From positions 124,001 through 188,000 of the forward strand of contig NZ_NFHP01000002.1 of NCBI RefSeq assembly GCF_002159335.1: a DNA stretch of 64,000 bases. Direction: 5' to 3'. The first letter of the stretch is position 1, and every line of letters starts with the position of its first letter. Of the stretch, positions 10,823-34,434 are shown one piece after another. Source of the DNA: Collinsella sp. An7 (lineage in GTDB: Bacteria; Actinomycetota; Coriobacteriia; Coriobacteriales; Coriobacteriaceae). A program made the position numbers and the translations under genes. The notes under the pieces are model-generated. The model searched no databases and was not told where the DNA came from. It saw only the letters and a list, made by a program, of their open reading frames with translations.

Positions 10823-10839
10823 CATGCGCGCGCTACCAT
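10821..10839 (+). repeat. Recurring phage element, copy 1 (before HNH gene)
   Basis: CTCATGCGCGCGCTACCAT, 30 bases before the HNH start. It shares CTCA at its start and TACCAT thirteen bases later with four other prophage sites (11392, 15778, 17753, 34436), most at gene starts. It may be a promoter with TACCAT as the -10 box. Confidence 0.5.
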
Positions 10840-10868
10840 CCTCGGGAAAGGACGAGAGGGAGGCGGGG

Positions 10869-11258
10869 ATGAGCAGGATGAGGACCTACTGCCCGCACTG
10901 CGGCCGCGTCGTGCCGGCGGGCAAGCGCTGCCCGTGTCGCCCGAGGCCAAAGCGCAGGCCGACCGAGGGCGACCGCACGCGCGGCGGACGCGAGCCGTGG
11001 CGGGCCAACTACTCCACCAAGGAGTACCAGGCCTCAAGGCAGCAGGCGATAGCGAGGACCGGGGGAAGGTGCTCGGCGTGCGGGAGGCAGTGCGCGTGGT
11101 TCGACGGCGCCAAGTGGAGGACGGCTGGCATGGGAGGCGAGGTGGACCACGTCGTGCCGCTGTGCAAGGGAGGGACGAACGCACCAGGCAACCTCCAGCT
11201 GCTCTGCAAGAGCTGCCACGGCACCAAGGACGCGAGGCTCAGGCGCAAGACCCCCTAA
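10869..11258 (+). CDS. HNH endonuclease of the packaging region
   Basis: Start ATG 10869 (GAGGGAGGCGGGG just upstream); 129 residues. CPHCG and CPCRP form a small N-terminal zinc knuckle; CSACGRQC, GGEVDHVVPLCKGGTN and NLQLLCKSCHGTK make the full HNH active site. HNH proteins near terminase genes in HK97-like phages assist cleavage during DNA packaging. Here three other genes separate it from the terminase genes, so a homing role is also possible. Confidence 0.82.
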   Translation: MSRMRTYCPHCGRVVPAGKRCPCRPRPKRRPTEGDRTRGGREPWRANYSTKEYQASRQQAIARTGGRCSACGRQCAWFDGAKWRTAGMGGEVDHVVPLCKGGTNAPGNLQLLCKSCHGTKDARLRRKTP

Positions 11259-11439: not shown

Positions 11440-11946
11440 ATGCGAAAAACCGAGCTGAAAATCGAGGAAATCCCGATTGACGAGCTGGTTCCCTACGAAA
11501 ACAACGCCAAGAAGCACACGCGAGAGCAGATTGACGCGGTAGAGGCCTCAATCAAGGAGTTCGGCTTCAGGAACCCCGTGATCGTGTGGCGCAACGCCGA
11601 CGGACGCCCCGAGGTGGTGGCCGGGCACGCAAGAGTGGCCGCAGCCAAGAACATCGGCATGCAGAAGGTTCCATGCGTCTCTTGCGACGACCTCACGGAC
11701 GCCCAGCGCCGCGCCCTCACGCTGGTGGACAACCAAACCACCATGATGACCGGGTGGGACTTCGACACGCTCAACTACGAGCTTGACACGCTGTGCGGGG
11801 AGTTCGACATGGGAGACTTCGGCTTCGACACGACCGGCGTGGCGGACATCGACAACCTCTTTACCGAGGAGGGCGAGCCGAAGGACGATTCGCCAGCGCC
11901 AAAAACAGCCACATGCCCGAACTGCGGTGAGACGTTTGAGCTATGA
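11440..11946 (+). CDS. ParB/Srx-fold (ParB-like nuclease domain) protein
   Basis: The 168-residue protein carries the ParB N-terminal fold: IDELVPYENNAKKHTREQID, IKEFGFRNPVIVW, RPEVVAGHARVAAAKNIGM. The GHAR motif is the nucleotide-binding box. A C-terminal CPNCGETFEL tail resembles half a zinc ribbon. In phages such domains usually accompany DNA modification enzymes. It overlaps the DpdA-like gene by 4 bases, so the pair is co-translated, suggesting a role in modification or site choice. CTP or nuclease activity has not been shown here. Confidence 0.82.
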   Translation: MRKTELKIEEIPIDELVPYENNAKKHTREQIDAVEASIKEFGFRNPVIVWRNADGRPEVVAGHARVAAAKNIGMQKVPCVSCDDLTDAQRRALTLVDNQTTMMTGWDFDTLNYELDTLCGEFDMGDFGFDTTGVADIDNLFTEEGEPKDDSPAPKTATCPNCGETFEL

Positions 11947-12165
11947 GGCTGTACGTCGCCGGAACGAACGGCCTCGGCAACTATCTGGAACGCGCCCTGT
12001 TCCAAAACGCTGCGGGGGGGGGCGTCGATGAAATGAGGCTTTATCTTGCCGCCACCCACGGCCCCGGAGGCCGCTATCTGCAAGGAGAACTGTTTTGCGA
12101 CTCTACCAAGCCGGGACGTTCACTCGACCGTACATCTTCCAAAACGCTAACGGGGGGTGCGCTCC
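11943..12165 (+). repeat. Three diverged tandem units at the 5' end of dpdA, with G9 and G6 tracts
   Basis: Units begin at 11943 (MRLYVAGT), 12033 (MRLYLAAT) and 12094 (TTG; RLYQAGT in another frame). Units 1 and 3 share TTCCAAAACGCT before a G run: G9 at 12014-12022, G6 at 12152-12157. Removing one G from the G6 tract would join unit 3's frame to the conserved body. Confidence 0.6.
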
Positions 12166-12866
12166 AAGGAGGGTTGGCCGGAATGTGCAACATCCTTGAG
12201 AGCTACTACTACGTGGCGGACTGGCAGACGCGCAACATCCACCGCTTCAAGCGCTTCCTGCTCGATTCCGGAGCGTTCACCGCGCTCTACGGGGCTGGGA
12301 TGGAGGCGAAGGCCCTTCCGGCCTACGTTGACAGGTACATCCGGTACATCTGCGAGAACAACGTCCAAGACTTCTTCGAGATGGACGTGGACTCGGTTGT
12401 TGGCTACAAGCGCGTGCTTGAGTTCCGGCGCGAGATCGAGGCGCAGACGGGGCGCAGGTGCATCCCGGTCTGGCACCTAGAGCGCGGCAAGAGGGCCTTT
12501 CAGGAGATGTGCACGGAGTACCCGTATGTCGCCATCGGCGGGATAGCCACCAAGGACGGCAGGAAGAGGCTCAAGCCGTATCTCAGGTGGTTCACGAGGG
12601 AGGCGCACAGGCTTGGGGCAAAGGTTCACGGGCTCGGATACACCGAGCTGAAAACGCTCCCATCCGTTGGCTTCGATTCCGTTGACTCCACGGCGTGGCT
12701 CTACGGGAACCGAGGCGGATACATCTACACGTTCGACGGCGTTGCCATCTGCAAGGTCAACGCACCAAAGGGCCACCGGCTTAAAACGCGGGAGGCCGTC
12801 ATCCATAACTTCACCGAATGGCTCCGATACGCGGAGTACTTGGAAGCAAACGACAAGGAGTGGTAA
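11943..12866 (+). CDS. dpdA: DpdA-like DNA-guanine transglycosylase (TGT family)
   Basis: The conserved part (ILESYYYVADWQ, RFLLDSGAFTALYG, FFEMDVDSVVGY, IPVWHLERG, YVAIGGIA, KVHGLGYTELKTLP, DSVDSTAWLYG) matches phage DpdA, a relative of tRNA-guanine transglycosylase that exchanges guanine in DNA for a 7-deazaguanine such as preQ0. The Asp residues of LLDSGAF and FEMDVD are the likely catalytic pair. The 307-residue frame starts in an ATGA overlap, but ATG 12183 (AAGGAGGG before it) would give a shorter 227-residue form beginning at MCNILESYYY. The first 80 residues are repetitive and include G9 and G6 tracts. A queuosine-precursor transporter follows three bases later, which supports the assignment. 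Confidence 0.78.
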   Translation: MRLYVAGTNGLGNYLERALFQNAAGGGVDEMRLYLAATHGPGGRYLQGELFCDSTKPGRSLDRTSSKTLTGGALQGGLAGMCNILESYYYVADWQTRNIHRFKRFLLDSGAFTALYGAGMEAKALPAYVDRYIRYICENNVQDFFEMDVDSVVGYKRVLEFRREIEAQTGRRCIPVWHLERGKRAFQEMCTEYPYVAIGGIATKDGRKRLKPYLRWFTREAHRLGAKVHGLGYTELKTLPSVGFDSVDSTAWLYGNRGGYIYTFDGVAICKVNAPKGHRLKTREAVIHNFTEWLRYAEYLEANDKEW

Positions 12867-12868
12867 GC

Positions 12869-13486
12869 ATGACAAAGAGTAAGTTCCTTTTCTATGCGGC
12901 AGCGACGTACTGCGTTCTGCTGATCGCAAACAACACCATCGCTGGGAAGACGTTTGACGTGTTCGGCTTCAGCTGGTCGAGCGCGTTCGTTACGTTCCCG
13001 GTCGTGTACATCCTCAACGACGTGTTCACCGAGGTCTACGGTTTCAAGACCGCGCGCAAGGTCGTTTTCATGGGCTTTATCCTGAACCTCGCAGCCGTGC
13101 TGGTGTACCAGATCGCGATCATCGTTCCCGGTTCCGCGCACTTCACCGCGCAGCCCGCGTTCGAGGCGGTGTTCTCAACGACTCCGCGAGCGCTTGCGGC
13201 AAGCTTCGGCGGCTACCTCGTTGGCTCCACGCTCAACGCCAAGATCATGCAGGTCATGCACGACCGTCACGGAGAGAGGCACCTTATGGCGCGCTGCGTG
13301 GTCTCCACGCTCTTTGGCGAGCTGAGCGATGCCGCCGTTTTCAACTTCGGAATGTTCCTCGGCGTGATGCCGGCTCAGGTAATTCTGGCGACGGTCGTAT
13401 CCTTCGGCCTCGCAAAGGTCGCCTACGAGGTCGTCATGTTCCCCGTGACCAAGGTTGTTATCGGAAAGGTCAAGCAGCTTGATTAA
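12869..13486 (+). CDS. yhhQ: YhhQ-family queuosine precursor transporter
   Basis: A 205-residue protein with about six membrane spans, CAAGGAG before ATG 12869. Family marks: IANNTIAGKTFDVFGF, FPVVYILNDVFTEVYGFK, GYLVGSTLNAKIM, and STLFGELSDAAVFNFG. YhhQ (COG1738) imports preQ0, preQ1 or related 7-deazaguanine bases. Phage copies occur next to dpdA, where they can feed DNA modification without a full preQ0 synthesis pathway. No queCDE or folE is seen in this prophage. Confidence 0.9.
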   Translation: MTKSKFLFYAAATYCVLLIANNTIAGKTFDVFGFSWSSAFVTFPVVYILNDVFTEVYGFKTARKVVFMGFILNLAAVLVYQIAIIVPGSAHFTAQPAFEAVFSTTPRALAASFGGYLVGSTLNAKIMQVMHDRHGERHLMARCVVSTLFGELSDAAVFNFGMFLGVMPAQVILATVVSFGLAKVAYEVVMFPVTKVVIGKVKQLD

Positions 13487-31426: not shown

Positions 31427-32302
31427 ATGGCAGACGCGAAGACCCTCAACGTCAACGGAACCAACTACAGCATCATCGACCAGACGGCGCGAAATTCCGC
31501 AACGCTGGCATCGACCAACGCCGAGTACGACCGTCAGGAGTTCAACGGCATCTATGCGGGCCGCAACCTCAACTCGCTGTTCTCCGGTCAGTCCGACCTC
31601 TACGCCTACCTCGGCGGGCTGTGTGACTCTGGCTTCGGCAACCTGCGCATCGGCGACTACTTCACCGTGCCCGTCGAGAGCAACAACCTCACGGCGCGCA
31701 TCGCGGGCATGGACACCTACCTCAACGCCATGGACACGCAGCTCACCCAGCATCATCTCGTGTGCCTGTTCGATCCCATCGCCATTACCGACACGGACTG
31801 GCAGACGACAGACGGGCAGTACCTCTACTGGGGAGACACCGAGAGCAATCAGGGCACGGCGGAGGAGAAGCACCCGTACCTCAACAGCAACCTGCACAAG
31901 TGGGAGACCGAGTGGCTTTTCCCGAAGCTCCCGCAGGCGCTCCGCAACCGCATCATCGACCGCCGGTGCCTGCTTGAGGAGCGCTACAGCGCGAGCGGCA
32001 ACGTCGAGGAGTCCACGGGCTGGTCTTGGGCCAACCTCGGCAAGGTTTGGTCGCTCAACGAGATGGAGGTGTACGGCGCGCCCGTATGGGGTACGCATGG
32101 CTACTCCGTCGGAGAGAGCTGCCAGCTGCCCATCTTCCGCCAGACCAAAGACCGCGTGAAAGTTCGCGTCCCTTGGTGGCTTCGCTCCGTCGTGGGTGGT
32201 TCGGCGTCCGACGTCTGCTGTTGCGCCAGCGGCGGCAACGCCAACGGCACCTCCCCTCGCAACACGTGGGTGCGGCCCCGCCCCGGCTTCCTCCTCAGCT
32301 GA
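31427..32302 (+). CDS. DGR target protein: tail receptor-binding protein with variable C-type-lectin-like end
   Basis: 291 residues. The C-terminal domain (ESCQLPIFRQTKDRVKVRVP, then WWLRSV, NTWVRPRPGF) is a CLec-fold variable domain of the formylglycine-enzyme type used by diversity-generating retroelements. The variable repeat covers residues 246-289. Compared with the template, six codons differ: 249, 262, 265, 267, 268 and 269, each at an AAC, AAT or TAT codon of the template. The N-terminal segment (VNGTNYSIIDQTARNSAT) is a trimerising fibre stem. The protein most likely contacts the host surface and changes specificity. Confidence 0.92.
   Translation: MADAKTLNVNGTNYSIIDQTARNSATLASTNAEYDRQEFNGIYAGRNLNSLFSGQSDLYAYLGGLCDSGFGNLRIGDYFTVPVESNNLTARIAGMDTYLNAMDTQLTQHHLVCLFDPIAITDTDWQTTDGQYLYWGDTESNQGTAEEKHPYLNSNLHKWETEWLFPKLPQALRNRIIDRRCLLEERYSASGNVEESTGWSWANLGKVWSLNEMEVYGAPVWGTHGYSVGESCQLPIFRQTKDRVKVRVPWWLRSVVGGSASDVCCCASGGNANGTSPRNTWVRPRPGFLLS
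32163..32291 (+). repeat. DGR variable repeat (VR)
   Basis: 129 bases matching the template at 32923-33051 (offset 760). Nine differences, at 32171, 32172, 32210, 32220, 32225, 32226, 32229, 32231 and 32232, all at template adenines. The last 59 bases, GC-rich, are identical and would serve as the homing initiation site. Confidence 0.95.
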
Positions 32303-32315
32303 TTCATTCAGCTGA
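32295..32315 (+). promoter_or_regulatory. Hairpin/cruciform just after VR
   Basis: TCAGCTGA at 32295-32302 and again at 32308-32315 form an 8-bp inverted repeat with a 5-nt loop, beginning 4 bases past VR and spanning the target's stop codon. Similar structures with 7-10 bp stems next to VR are needed for DGR target recognition in Bordetella phage BPP-1. Confidence 0.75.
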
Positions 32316-32332
32316 ACCACGGCTATACTTAC

Positions 32333-32366
32333 GGCGACCGCCTTGCGCGGTCGCCCTTTGCTTTTG
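32333..32366 (+). terminator. Rho-independent terminator after the DGR target gene
   Basis: GGCGACCGC (32333-32341) and GCGGTCGCC (32347-32355), 9-bp stem, 5-nt loop, followed by CTTTGCTTTTG. It would end the late structural transcript before avd. Confidence 0.85.
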
Positions 32367-32375
32367 TTCTTATAT

Positions 32376-32398
32376 GCCCGCGAAGCGGGCCGAATTTT
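32376..32398 (+). terminator. Second hairpin with T tract before avd
   Basis: GCCCGC (32376-32381), GAA loop, GCGGGC (32385-32390), then CGAATTTTT. It may be a back-up terminator or a leader structure of avd, whose ribosome site GGGGGCG follows. Confidence 0.6.
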
Positions 32399-32408
32399 TG
32401 GGGGCGAA

Positions 32409-32906
32409 ATGAGCCAAGTATTCCAACGGAACCGCAAGGAGGCCGACACGGACTTCCTAAGCCTCGCGGCAGACATACGCCTTGAGGTGCTTTCCCTCGT
32501 GAGCAACGAGAACGTGGTGCCGAAGCGCAAGAGGCTCATTCTGGGCGTCCCCATGGCAGAAACCGCCCGCTCGCTGGTGTACAACGTGAACAGGGCCAAC
32601 CGCTTCTACCCAAGCAACTCCTTTAACGTGTTGGAGCGCAAGAGGTATCTGGGACTCGCCATGGCGGACTGCGATCAGCTTGAGCAGGACTTCCAGTGCC
32701 TCATCGCCATGAAGTGCACCACCGCGAGCGAGCTTGAGCGCATCTCCGGCATGATCCGCGACGAGGCGGACAAGGTCTCCAAAAAGCGCAAGTACACGCG
32801 CATAATCGGCAGGGAGTCGGCGGAGGACAGGCTTGCCGCCGCGAGGGCCGAGACCGAGCGCCTAGAGGCCGTGGTGCTCGAACAGCCGGGCGGCTATAAT
32901 GCGTAG
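32409..32906 (+). CDS. avd: DGR accessory variability determinant (Avd)
   Basis: 165 residues from ATG 32409 with GGGGGCG before it. The protein is helical (FLSLAADIRLEVLSLVSNEN, LVYNVNRANRFYPSNSFNV, ERKRYLGLAMADCDQLEQDF, ELERISGMIRDEADKVSKKR), as the four-helix Avd that forms a pentamer and binds the reverse transcriptase and template RNA. It lies between target and template, the standard DGR order. A TATAAT box for the template RNA lies in its last codons. Confidence 0.88.
   Translation: MSQVFQRNRKEADTDFLSLAADIRLEVLSLVSNENVVPKRKRLILGVPMAETARSLVYNVNRANRFYPSNSFNVLERKRYLGLAMADCDQLEQDFQCLIAMKCTTASELERISGMIRDEADKVSKKRKYTRIIGRESAEDRLAAARAETERLEAVVLEQPGGYNA
32895..32900 (+). promoter_or_regulatory. 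-10 box (TATAAT) for the template RNA
   Basis: A perfect TATAAT lies inside the final codons of avd, 23 bases before the start of the template repeat. No clear -35 hexamer is seen at 17 bases, though GTGGTG is nearby. A transcript starting near 32907 would contain the whole template. Confidence 0.6.
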
Positions 32907-33255
32907 CGGTTGCGCTTTGTTATTCGCGTCAATTGGTGGCTTCGCTCCGTCGTGGGTGGTTCGGCGTCCAACGTCTGCTATTGCAACAACAACGGCAACG
33001 CCAACGGCACCTCCCCTCGCAACACGTGGGTGCGGCCCCGCCCCGGCTTCCCTTTCACTGCCAGACCGAGTAAGCGAGAGCCGAAAGCCGAGCGCAAAGA
33101 GGAAGGAAGGCGCGACCATCGGCCTCAGCGCCGTAAATATGCACCCCGCGCGGGGAGCCGGACGCTTCTTGCATGGCCGGGCGCTCCGGCGCTCAGCCCG
33201 GTTTCATGGTCTCCCCGCAAAGCGGCTGTTCGAGCGCCACTGCTAGCCGTGCGGG
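32907..33255 (+). ncRNA. DGR template RNA region with template repeat (TR)
   Basis: About 350 noncoding bases between avd and the reverse transcriptase. TR is 32923-33051 and carries 19 adenines, nine of which are changed in VR. The spacer after TR is GC-rich and could fold as the part of the RNA that primes cDNA synthesis. Open frames across the region are repeats of the target's frame and are not genes. Confidence 0.85.
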
Positions 33256-33264
33256 GTGCCCTCC

Positions 33265-34434
33265 ATGAACTCAGACGACAGGCGCGCTGCCCGCAGGGCT
33301 AGGCGCGAGGAAAAGCGCGCCCGCAACAGGGCCGAGAGAATAGACGGCCTCACGCTTGAGCGTATCGCCGACATGGACGCGCTCTACGACGCCGCCATGA
33401 AGTCGAGGCGCGGTGTGTCGTGGAAGGCGTCTGTTCAGGGCTACTGCCTCCACGTTCTGGGCAACGTCTACAAGGCACGCCAAGACCTGCTGAACGGCGA
33501 GGACATCCGGCGCGGCTTCCACGAGTTCGACCTCATTGAGCGCGGCAAGCTTCGGCACATATCGTCCGTGCACTTCAGCGAGCGGGTCGTACACAAGTCG
33601 CTGAGCCAGAACGCGCTCGTCCCCGCGATCATGCCGACGCTCACCGCCGGCAACTCCGCCAACATGAAGGGCAGGGGCGTCGACTACGCTATAGCGCGGC
33701 TCAAGAACCAGCTCGCGCGCCACTACCGGCGGCACGGAACCGATGGCTACGTGCTGCTCGTTGACTTCAGCGACTACTTCGCGCGCATCGACCACGACGC
33801 GGCCAAGCGGCTCGTGATGAAGGCCCTCGATGACGAACGTCTCGTGGCGCTGACAAACGGCCTCATAGACGCATGCGGCGACGTGGGCCTCGGCCTCGGA
33901 AGCGAGCCGAACCAGATACTCGCGGTTGCGCTCCCGAACCCCATCGACCACTGGGCGGAGGAGATGGCGGGGCTTGAGGCGACGGGCCGCTACATGGACG
34001 ATTCCTACTACATCGACATGAGCAAGGACAAGCTCAAGCTGGTCTTGGCCTGCATCGAGATACTGTGCGATGACCTCGGCATCACAATCAACAAGAAGAA
34101 GACGCGTATCGTCAAGCTATCGCGCGGCTTCAGGTTCCTCAAGAAGCGGTTCTACTACGGCCCCACGGGCAAGGTCGTCGTGCGCCCGAGCCGCGAGGCC
34201 ATAACCCGCGAGCGCCGCAAGCTCAAGGCGATGCGCCGCATGCTAGACCGTGGCGAGATAACGCTGAGGCAGATAAACCAGTCATACCAGAGCTGGCGCG
34301 GCGGCATGCTCAGGCTCGACGCGCACGAAACCGTCCTCAGCATGGACAGGCTCTACAAGGAGCTGTTCGTCAATGAATACCCCCCCCCCGGAGCGGAAAT
34401 CCTGACCCTGACTAGGCTCAAGGCCGCCGCGTAA
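33265..34434 (+). CDS. DGR reverse transcriptase
   Basis: About 389 residues from ATG 33265; GTG 33256 is the alternative and neither ribosome site is strong. RT blocks: VLLVDFSDYFARIDHDAAKR (motif A), GLGLGSEPNQILAVALPNPI (the DGR-type replacement of the usual QG...SQ motif), YMDDSYYIDMSKD (catalytic Asp pair), and ITINKKKTRIVKLSRGFRFL. It copies the template RNA with errors at adenines. The C-terminal end is encoded across a C10 tract (34380-34389). Confidence 0.95.
   Translation: MNSDDRRAARRARREEKRARNRAERIDGLTLERIADMDALYDAAMKSRRGVSWKASVQGYCLHVLGNVYKARQDLLNGEDIRRGFHEFDLIERGKLRHISSVHFSERVVHKSLSQNALVPAIMPTLTAGNSANMKGRGVDYAIARLKNQLARHYRRHGTDGYVLLVDFSDYFARIDHDAAKRLVMKALDDERLVALTNGLIDACGDVGLGLGSEPNQILAVALPNPIDHWAEEMAGLEATGRYMDDSYYIDMSKDKLKLVLACIEILCDDLGITINKKKTRIVKLSRGFRFLKKRFYYGPTGKVVVRPSREAITRERRKLKAMRRMLDRGEITLRQINQSYQSWRGGMLRLDAHETVLSMDRLYKELFVNEYPPPGAEILTLTRLKAAA
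34380..34389 (+). repeat. C10 homopolymer near the 3' end of the DGR reverse transcriptase
   Basis: Ten consecutive C encode part of YPPPG, 15 codons before the stop. A slip of one base would change only the last residues. Confidence 0.9.

Follow-up and report, generated by a model that had tools for sequence, protein, structure and literature searches.

A putative salvage-fed DpdA module in a Collinsella prophage with a candidate phase-variable, cassette-switched 5' end of dpdA

A prophage of Collinsella sp. An7 carries three tightly coupled genes on the plus strand that encode a ParB-domain protein, a DpdA-like protein, and a YhhQ-family transporter. They are located in a stretch of 64,000 nt (contig NZ_NFHP01000002.1, positions 124,001 to 188,000), the whole of which is called the window below, and their coordinates are listed in Table 1. 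The ParB and DpdA genes overlap by 4 nt (ATGA). We favor, with moderate confidence, the view that the trio is a salvage-fed modification module with a phase-variable, cassette-switched DNA-guanine transglycosylase.

Several described systems resemble parts of this locus. The queuine tRNA-ribosyltransferase of Klebsiella phage K4PH164, an example of phage DpdA1 (Queuovirinae/9g type), is about 27% identical to the window DpdA, has the same order of motifs (M-N-L-Y-L-A ... NILESYHY ... FLDSGAF), and is encoded beside QueD- and FolE-type genes. However, it has a single N-terminal strand, no cassette array, and no poly-Gly/poly-G cassette in the translated 5' end, and no ParB is annotated adjoining DpdA in the K4PH164 record. 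In the ParB-DpdA-queCDE loci of mycobacteriophage CRB2, a ParB-superfamily gene lies directly 5' of DpdA (PMC6392294), as in the window; in contrast, these loci encode synthesis rather than import, and cassettes are unmentioned in the available excerpts of that article. The bacterial Dpd system (DpdA/DpdB/DpdC) likewise includes a ParB-like partner, which is needed for dPreQ0 insertion (PMC12839542). Unlike that system, the window set resides in a phage and not in a defense island, and no DpdC-type gene was recognized among the genes examined.

With respect to switching, the closest parallels are bacterial loci controlled by repeats. In Haemophilus lic-type loci, alternative start codons lie around the repeats, and the repeat length chooses starts in different frames; these alternative starts, however, alter the amount of the product and not a conserved protein segment. 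The phase-variable Mod and HsdS methyltransferases (phasevarions) combine frame switching by repeat length with exchangeable specificity parts (PMC12707154). In contrast, the enzyme in the window is a predicted phage transglycosylase, and the repeat would pick N-terminal cassettes that have their own starts. No report of a phase-variable or cassette-type DpdA was found among the titles and abstracts listed in searches of open-access literature. As far as these searches reached, the combination of cassettes and tracts at the front of dpdA is undescribed, and DpdA is a candidate phase-variable DNA modifier.

The initial annotation of this stretch recognized the three genes, all of which are present as claimed and show a synteny with relatives that is beyond chance, but it overlooked the 5' end of dpdA, where residues 1-83 comprise three cassette-like starts in two frames and two G tracts (G9 and G6). 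These first 83 residues of the open reading frame hold three copies of the N-terminal strand of the family. The G6 tract places cassette 2, and via the G9 tract also cassette 1, in the frame of the catalytic body. Cassette 3 would join the body if the G6 tract were one G shorter or two Gs longer; its distance to the LDSGAF motif is 163 nt (about 54 amino acids, compared to a family median of 48).

To place these features in a family context, we analyzed relatives collected from six viral-contig scans, together with two phage records and the genome's own copy, altogether 374 loci. An LDSGAF-type motif was present in 356 of them, and the 18 loci without it were dropped, as were 151 duplicates that were identical over the compared stretch, leaving 205 non-redundant loci. 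Because each viral-contig scan was limited to the best 80 relatives, the 205 loci are a sample, and most of them come from metagenome contigs whose read quality is not known. In this family, the 5' end of dpdA consists of tandem alternative N-terminal cassettes (M-K/R-I-Y/F-L-A-G...) with their own starts, often in different frames, and up to five cassettes lie between the ParB stop and LDSGAF. A strict cassette pattern had 183 matches in 27 kb of this interval and two in 1,282 kb of other sequence (both strands), whereas a looser pattern, applied to the set of 205, had 350 matches in the interval and 39 elsewhere. Of 182 loci, 152 have a start codon that overlaps the stop of the ParB gene, in most cases the start of the first cassette. 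Many arrays are in frame as a single polypeptide.

The cassettes are not fixed to their bodies. Of 120 pairs of loci whose bodies share at least 85% identity, 23 differ so much in the loop of the last cassette that the identity there is less than 40%, although the pairs are not independent of each other. In one case, L072 and L175, whose bodies share 97% identity, L175 lacks the last cassette of L072, with an exact boundary, so that the cassette that is internal in L072 is the one fused to the body in L175. These comparisons indicate that cassettes are exchanged between phages, and the coding constraint described below marks them as real coding units. In the structural model of the relative L168, which has four cassettes, the match to TGT comprises residues 67-323, that is, it includes the last cassette and excludes the earlier ones. 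From the barrel topology, the loop that follows the cassette strand would face the DNA.

The interval is also rich in G tracts. Runs of at least seven Gs occurred 160 times in the 55.9 kb between ParB and LDSGAF, compared to 25 times in 1,407 kb elsewhere, a 160-fold enrichment; runs of at least seven Cs were absent from these 55.9 kb, and runs of at least seven As were not enriched. Altogether, 84 of the 205 loci have a G tract of this length in the interval. Such loci were more common among relatives with import genes (50 of 70) than among those with synthesis genes (23 of 101), in a comparison that ignores kinship. When no run of at least five Gs intervenes, the last cassette is in the body frame in 104 of 107 loci, whereas it is in frame in only 28 of 57 when such a run is present (Fisher p 3e-13; this count leaves out the 41 of the 205 loci that have no cassette by the pattern used). 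A mutable tract within the reading frame, enriched over background, is thus found for the DpdA family.

Genomes that are almost identical can differ in tract length, and with it in frame. The loci L056 and L061, which come from different metagenomes, share 99.6% identity over 1280 nt and differ by three mismatches and two 1-nt indels, both of which are in G tracts. One tract is G9 in one of them and G8 in the other, and different cassettes are therefore fused to the body: L056 reads MRLFLAGVAPWRSGGG fused to the body sequence YDQIIHTHRPYILES, whereas L061 reads LRVFLAGVESRHWIPS... fused to the same YDQIIHTHRPYILES, the L061 reading being LRVFLAGVESRHWI...-body. Likewise, L042 (G8) and L045 (G7) fuse different cassettes to the body. 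A difference of three Gs, as between L080 and L114, keeps the same phase. Among pairs that are at least 98.5% identical, the sole indel outside a G tract is one of 11 nt in L016/L017. The changes of tract length and frame were observed in these relatives, not in the window prophage itself.

Three relatives (L074, L161, and L266) have G8 runs about 450 nt past LDSGAF, inside the DpdA body at a YGN(R)GG site; possibly, these are further tracts in the same gene.

Taken together, these features can be accommodated by the following mechanism. The YhhQ-family transporter would import a preQ0/preQ1-like base, and DpdA, with its TGT fold, would exchange the imported base for guanine in DNA, partnered by the ParB-domain protein as the presumed counterpart of the bacterial DpdB. 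The 5' end of dpdA would be a contingency locus, with interchangeable tandem cassettes between ParB and the catalytic body, each contributing the first barrel strand, the following loop, and its own start codon. By slipped-strand mispairing during growth of the phage or the lysogen, the poly-G tracts would gain or lose Gs, and their length would set which cassette, or none, reads into the body; recombination would additionally swap cassettes. The cassette in use would then affect the target or the activity of the enzyme, and the prophage in the window presumably switches in this way as well. More tentatively, a three-position poly-G selector might fuse one of several cassettes, comprising the first barrel strand and a loop on the catalytic face, to a single transglycosylase body, and might in this way let one phage switch the sequence specificity or the presence of DNA hypermodification between generations; such variable self-marking would vary the restriction enzymes that are escaped, and recombination would refresh the cassettes. 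We regard this extension as possible, but not as the expected outcome.

Several observations weigh against a switch, above all for the window itself. Its selector tract is only G6, and runs of at least eight Gs in the 64 kb are not beyond chance (29 of 100 dinucleotide shuffles reach the five matches found). G9 runs, though rare, also occur at other places in the host genome, with a total of 23 overlapping matches. In the present phase, about 27 residues (about 52-78) of the protein would be translated from the out-of-frame DNA of cassette 3, mostly as a segment of low confidence (residues 54-76 in the AlphaFold2 model). A second genome with the same prophage was sought with the window DpdA, and the only match among 98 relatives was the genome itself, as was the only match among 396 genomes of the phylum. 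The window alone does not prove tract switching. Within the family, 121 of the 205 relatives have no run of at least seven Gs in the interval. Of the 47 loci that combine two or more cassettes with a tract of at least six Gs before the body, nine have no cassette presently in frame and 16 serve only one phase, so that some loci may be decayed; two phases are served in 27 loci and all three in four.

The locus could instead be an ordinary ParB-DpdA-YhhQ module with one working DpdA start, in which past recombination has left the additional cassettes behind as non-functional remnants and the G runs merely happen to encode glycine. In line with this, many relatives have one cassette and no tract (by count of units, 41 of the 205 loci have none and 59 have one), and the window, in which G8 and longer runs are not unusual, has two of its three cassettes in frame in an intact reading frame. 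However, cassettes that are out of frame retain coding constraint. In comparisons of out-of-frame distal cassettes of the same type, the third codon position of their own frame accounts for a share of 0.52 of the differences (78 pairs), compared to 0.53 for proximal cassettes and 0.61 for the body as a control. Shine-Dalgarno-like sites precede 31 of 86 out-of-frame distal cassettes, 34 of 144 in-frame distal cassettes, and 50 of 193 proximal cassettes, compared to 231 of 2354 background ATGs; like the pairwise and codon-position statistics, these values ignore kinship among loci. In addition, the frames of the cassettes are open up to the tract more often than controls: in the 47 tract loci, 42 of 80 earlier out-of-frame cassettes are stop-free to the tract, compared to 27 of 240 in the alternative frames of the body, and 49 of 80 are stop-free beyond the start of the next cassette, compared to 118 of 400 and 106 of 350 in controls. 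Frames that no cassette uses were open in four of 36 cases, over a longer stretch. As the G runs are, moreover, 160-fold enriched and strand-specific, we consider a single working start unlikely.

A phase-variable cassette switch at the DNA level also has to be distinguished from events during gene expression. Tracts of seven to 11 Gs are slippage sites in general, and programmed ribosomal frameshifting or transcriptional slippage could yield several DpdA isoforms from one genome without a change of the DNA; in line with this, nine of the 47 tract loci have no cassette in the body frame at present. Nevertheless, no fixed shift is seen: the offsets are both +1 and +2 and track the tract length. 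For an APWRSG-type cassette, a G9 tract is in frame in eight of eight cases, whereas G8, G10, and G11 at the same place are out of frame, and near-identical genomes differ in tract length. Frameshifting is therefore rather improbable as the explanation.

That the upstream cassettes are made as separate short peptides, which might for example compete with the first strand of DpdA or complete it in trans, would agree with their own starts, their Shine-Dalgarno-like sites, and their coding constraint, as well as with the 152 of 182 loci in which the first start is coupled to the end of the ParB gene. The open paths, however, extend to the tract, many arrays form one continuous reading frame, and the same type of cassette, internal in L072, is the one joined to the body in the closely similar L175, which makes separate peptides quite improbable. 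Homopolymer errors are even less probable as the source of the differences in tract length, for although most relatives are metagenome contigs and L038 and L041 differ at a tract near a contig end, such errors cannot create a 160-fold enrichment of tracts, and with different lengths, other conserved cassettes free of stop codons become open.

The predicted protein of the middle gene matched phrog_887, annotated as queuine tRNA-ribosyltransferase, with an E value of 8e-41 over residues 83-274, that is, the match begins only at residue 83, behind the cassettes. Pfam had no match above the cut-off, and a sequence search of solved structures retrieved no TGT but only a chance match to LRP4. The AlphaFold2 model has a mean pLDDT of 81, and ranks 1-11 of the Foldseek search are TGT. 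For the model of L168, all 50 structural matches listed are TGT (Z 14.7-15.6, root-mean-square deviation 3.5-4.1, 238-247 aligned residues). D108, H229, and D248 are invariant in an alignment of 79 sequences. In a profile comparison with the host TGT, LDSGAF aligned with TDSGGF, but only in the register of DSGGF and with a weak score (E 0.085). A histidine 196 is named in PMC6884629, for which H229 is at most a candidate counterpart. The motifs quoted in the initial annotation (LLDSGAFTAL, FEMDVDSVVG, HGLGYT) are all present, and the profile match to an unrelated TIM-barrel family that would have spoken against its assignment did not occur. The middle gene is thus a member of the phage DpdA family with a TGT fold, and its activity on DNA is predicted from sequence and model. 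An action on tRNA in the queuosine salvage of the host, suggested by the TGT fold and by the service of YhhQ to tRNA queuosine in hosts (TIGR00697), is very improbable, as the host is already equipped with a TGT, domains of the ParB_N type go together with enzymes that modify DNA (phrog_498; PDLC03229 MTase_II), and the nearest named relatives are phage DpdA-type proteins.

The third gene belongs to the Vut_1 family (PF02592, E 5e-38) and exceeds the cut-off of TIGR00697 (111.7 versus 50.95 bits), with 12869 as the better start behind the AAGGAG motif. The earlier designation as a clear YhhQ holds at the level of this superfamily, but not for the curated YhhQ equivalog PRK11212, for which 47 bits were obtained and 252 are required; the protein is not an equivalog of the E. 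coli YhhQ. In the host genome, TGT and QueA are present and QueC was not found, while QueD and QueE were not searched for separately; the prophage transporter is the only Vut_1 gene. In 176 relatives in which the 3' side of DpdA could be assessed, synthesis genes (QueD/QueE/FolE, mostly with QueC) are present in 101, a YhhQ-family gene without QueD/QueE in 70, both in four, and neither in one. Since synthesis and import alternate, and the host lacks QueC and has a single Vut_1 gene, the trio is most naturally read as a salvage-fed module, in agreement with what had been proposed from the sequence of the window. This reading has good support, but is for the most part not new: Hutinet et al. (2019; PMC6884629) report YhhQ in some phages and mention uptake as a possibility. 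Fusobacterium phage phiFN37 has the same gene order as the window, with one additional gene before the transporter.

Two variants of the 3' side were also seen in the 176 relatives. In 29 of them (e.g., L012, L014, L023, and L042), YhhQ is accompanied by a QueC-like gene without QueD/QueE, an odd set that points to uptake of some intermediate different from preQ0 or to another function of the QueC-like enzyme. In 11 relatives, a small gene homologous to L005:6646-7080 lies between DpdA and the supply genes. G8 to G9 runs are found about 680 nt past LDSGAF, near a gene of this type, in L029, L035, and L127.

The first gene of the trio is conserved in position. ParB lies directly 5' of DpdA in 182 of 185 testable loci and is missing there in three; the other 20 of the 205 are cut by the contig edge. 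The window protein has a ParB_N domain (PF02195, 44.2 bits, cut-off 26.3) and matched phrog_620 (E 3e-49) as well as phrog_498, which is labeled as DNA methyltransferase (E 3e-44, profile residues 30-186 of 633). The full ParB/RepB/Spo0J model TIGR00180 remained below its cut-off (49.9 versus 58.45 bits), indicating the domain only and not a partition protein. In a PADLOC scan, the protein matched the type II methyltransferase model PDLC03229 MTase_II, and no Dpd model was matched. The matches to phrog_498 and MTase_II indicate that this type of ParB domain accompanies DNA-modifying enzymes. The role of the ParB-like protein had been called undefined, yet a DpdB-like role has already been proposed: the ParB adjoining the DpdA of mycobacteriophage CRB2 was suggested to be a DpdB homologue (PMC6392294), and DpdB is a ParB-like ATPase required for insertion (PMC12839542). 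By position and superfamily, the window ParB is predicted to be a DpdB-like partner of DpdA. A further idea, that the cassette DNA forms a ParB-binding array, was rejected because the cassettes vary chiefly at third codon positions.

The trio is embedded in phage genes. An HNH endonuclease gene (10824-11258) lies directly 5' of the ParB gene, and genes for the small and large terminase subunits, the portal, and the tape-measure protein also flank the trio, the terminase genes being located on its 3' side. The host genome has a size of 2.37 Mb. The prophage is also present as a viral contig of 39.2 kb (IMG/VR 2788500616), which encodes an identical DpdA. A pattern scan of genome contigs for DpdA relatives gave 50 pattern matches, none of which was confirmed.

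Table 1. Positions (in the window) of the three genes and of the cassettes and tracts at the 5' end of dpdA
Feature	Position	Strand	Evidence or remark
ParB_N-domain protein, 168 aa, C-terminal CxxC (CPNCG)	11440..11946	+	PF02195, phrog_620, phrog_498, synteny
Predicted DpdA-like DNA-guanine transglycosylase, open reading frame of 307 aa in the present phase	11943..12866	+	phrog_887, Foldseek
N-terminal cassette 1, MRLYVAGTNGLGNYLERALFQNAAGGG, MRLYVAGT; start overlaps the ParB stop (ATGA)	11943..12032	+	
G9 tract inside cassette 1	12014..12022	+	
N-terminal cassette 2, MRLYLAATHGPGGRYLQGELF, MRLYLAAT; in the body frame at present	12033..12094	+	strand 32-36 in AlphaFold2 model
AAGGAG, Shine-Dalgarno-like site 5' of cassette 3	12082..12087	+	
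N-terminal cassette 3 (TTG start), LRLYQAGTFTRPYIFQNANGG, LRLYQAGT; out of the body frame at present	12095..12157	+	
G6 tract between cassette 3 and body, putative frame-selector position	12152..12157	+	
Catalytic body: ILESYYY ... LDSGAF (codons from 12261) ... HGLGYT ... SVDST	12192..12866	+	invariant residues
YhhQ/QPTR-family queuosine-precursor transporter, 205 aa	12869..13486	+	PF02592, TIGR00697; AAGGAG at 12855-12860

The same prophage contains a diversity-generating retroelement (31427-34434), with a reverse transcriptase gene at 33256-34434 (phrog_1423), a template repeat at 32923-33051, and a variable repeat at 32163-32291 at the end of the gene 31427-32302. The repeats have a length of 129 nt and differ at nine positions, every one at a template adenine. 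Mutagenesis of the dpdA 5' end by this element was considered and rejected, as the template and variable repeats are located at 32-33 kb and the changes are at template adenines. Apart from the G9 tract in dpdA, the sole run of at least eight Gs or Cs in the window is a C10 run (34380-34389) near the 3' end of the reverse transcriptase open reading frame, and slippage there could change the C-terminus of the reverse transcriptase.

One conserved ParB-DpdA core, which is combined with synthesis genes in some relatives and with a transporter in others, gives a clean comparison of making and importing the precursor. Hypermodification of phage DNA is usually taken as a fixed trait. If the proposed switching is true, phages could hedge against restriction systems and quickly change the disguise of their DNA, a stock of a single phage would contain differently modified particles, and the cassette array would provide naturally occurring loops with which to ask how DpdA picks guanines.

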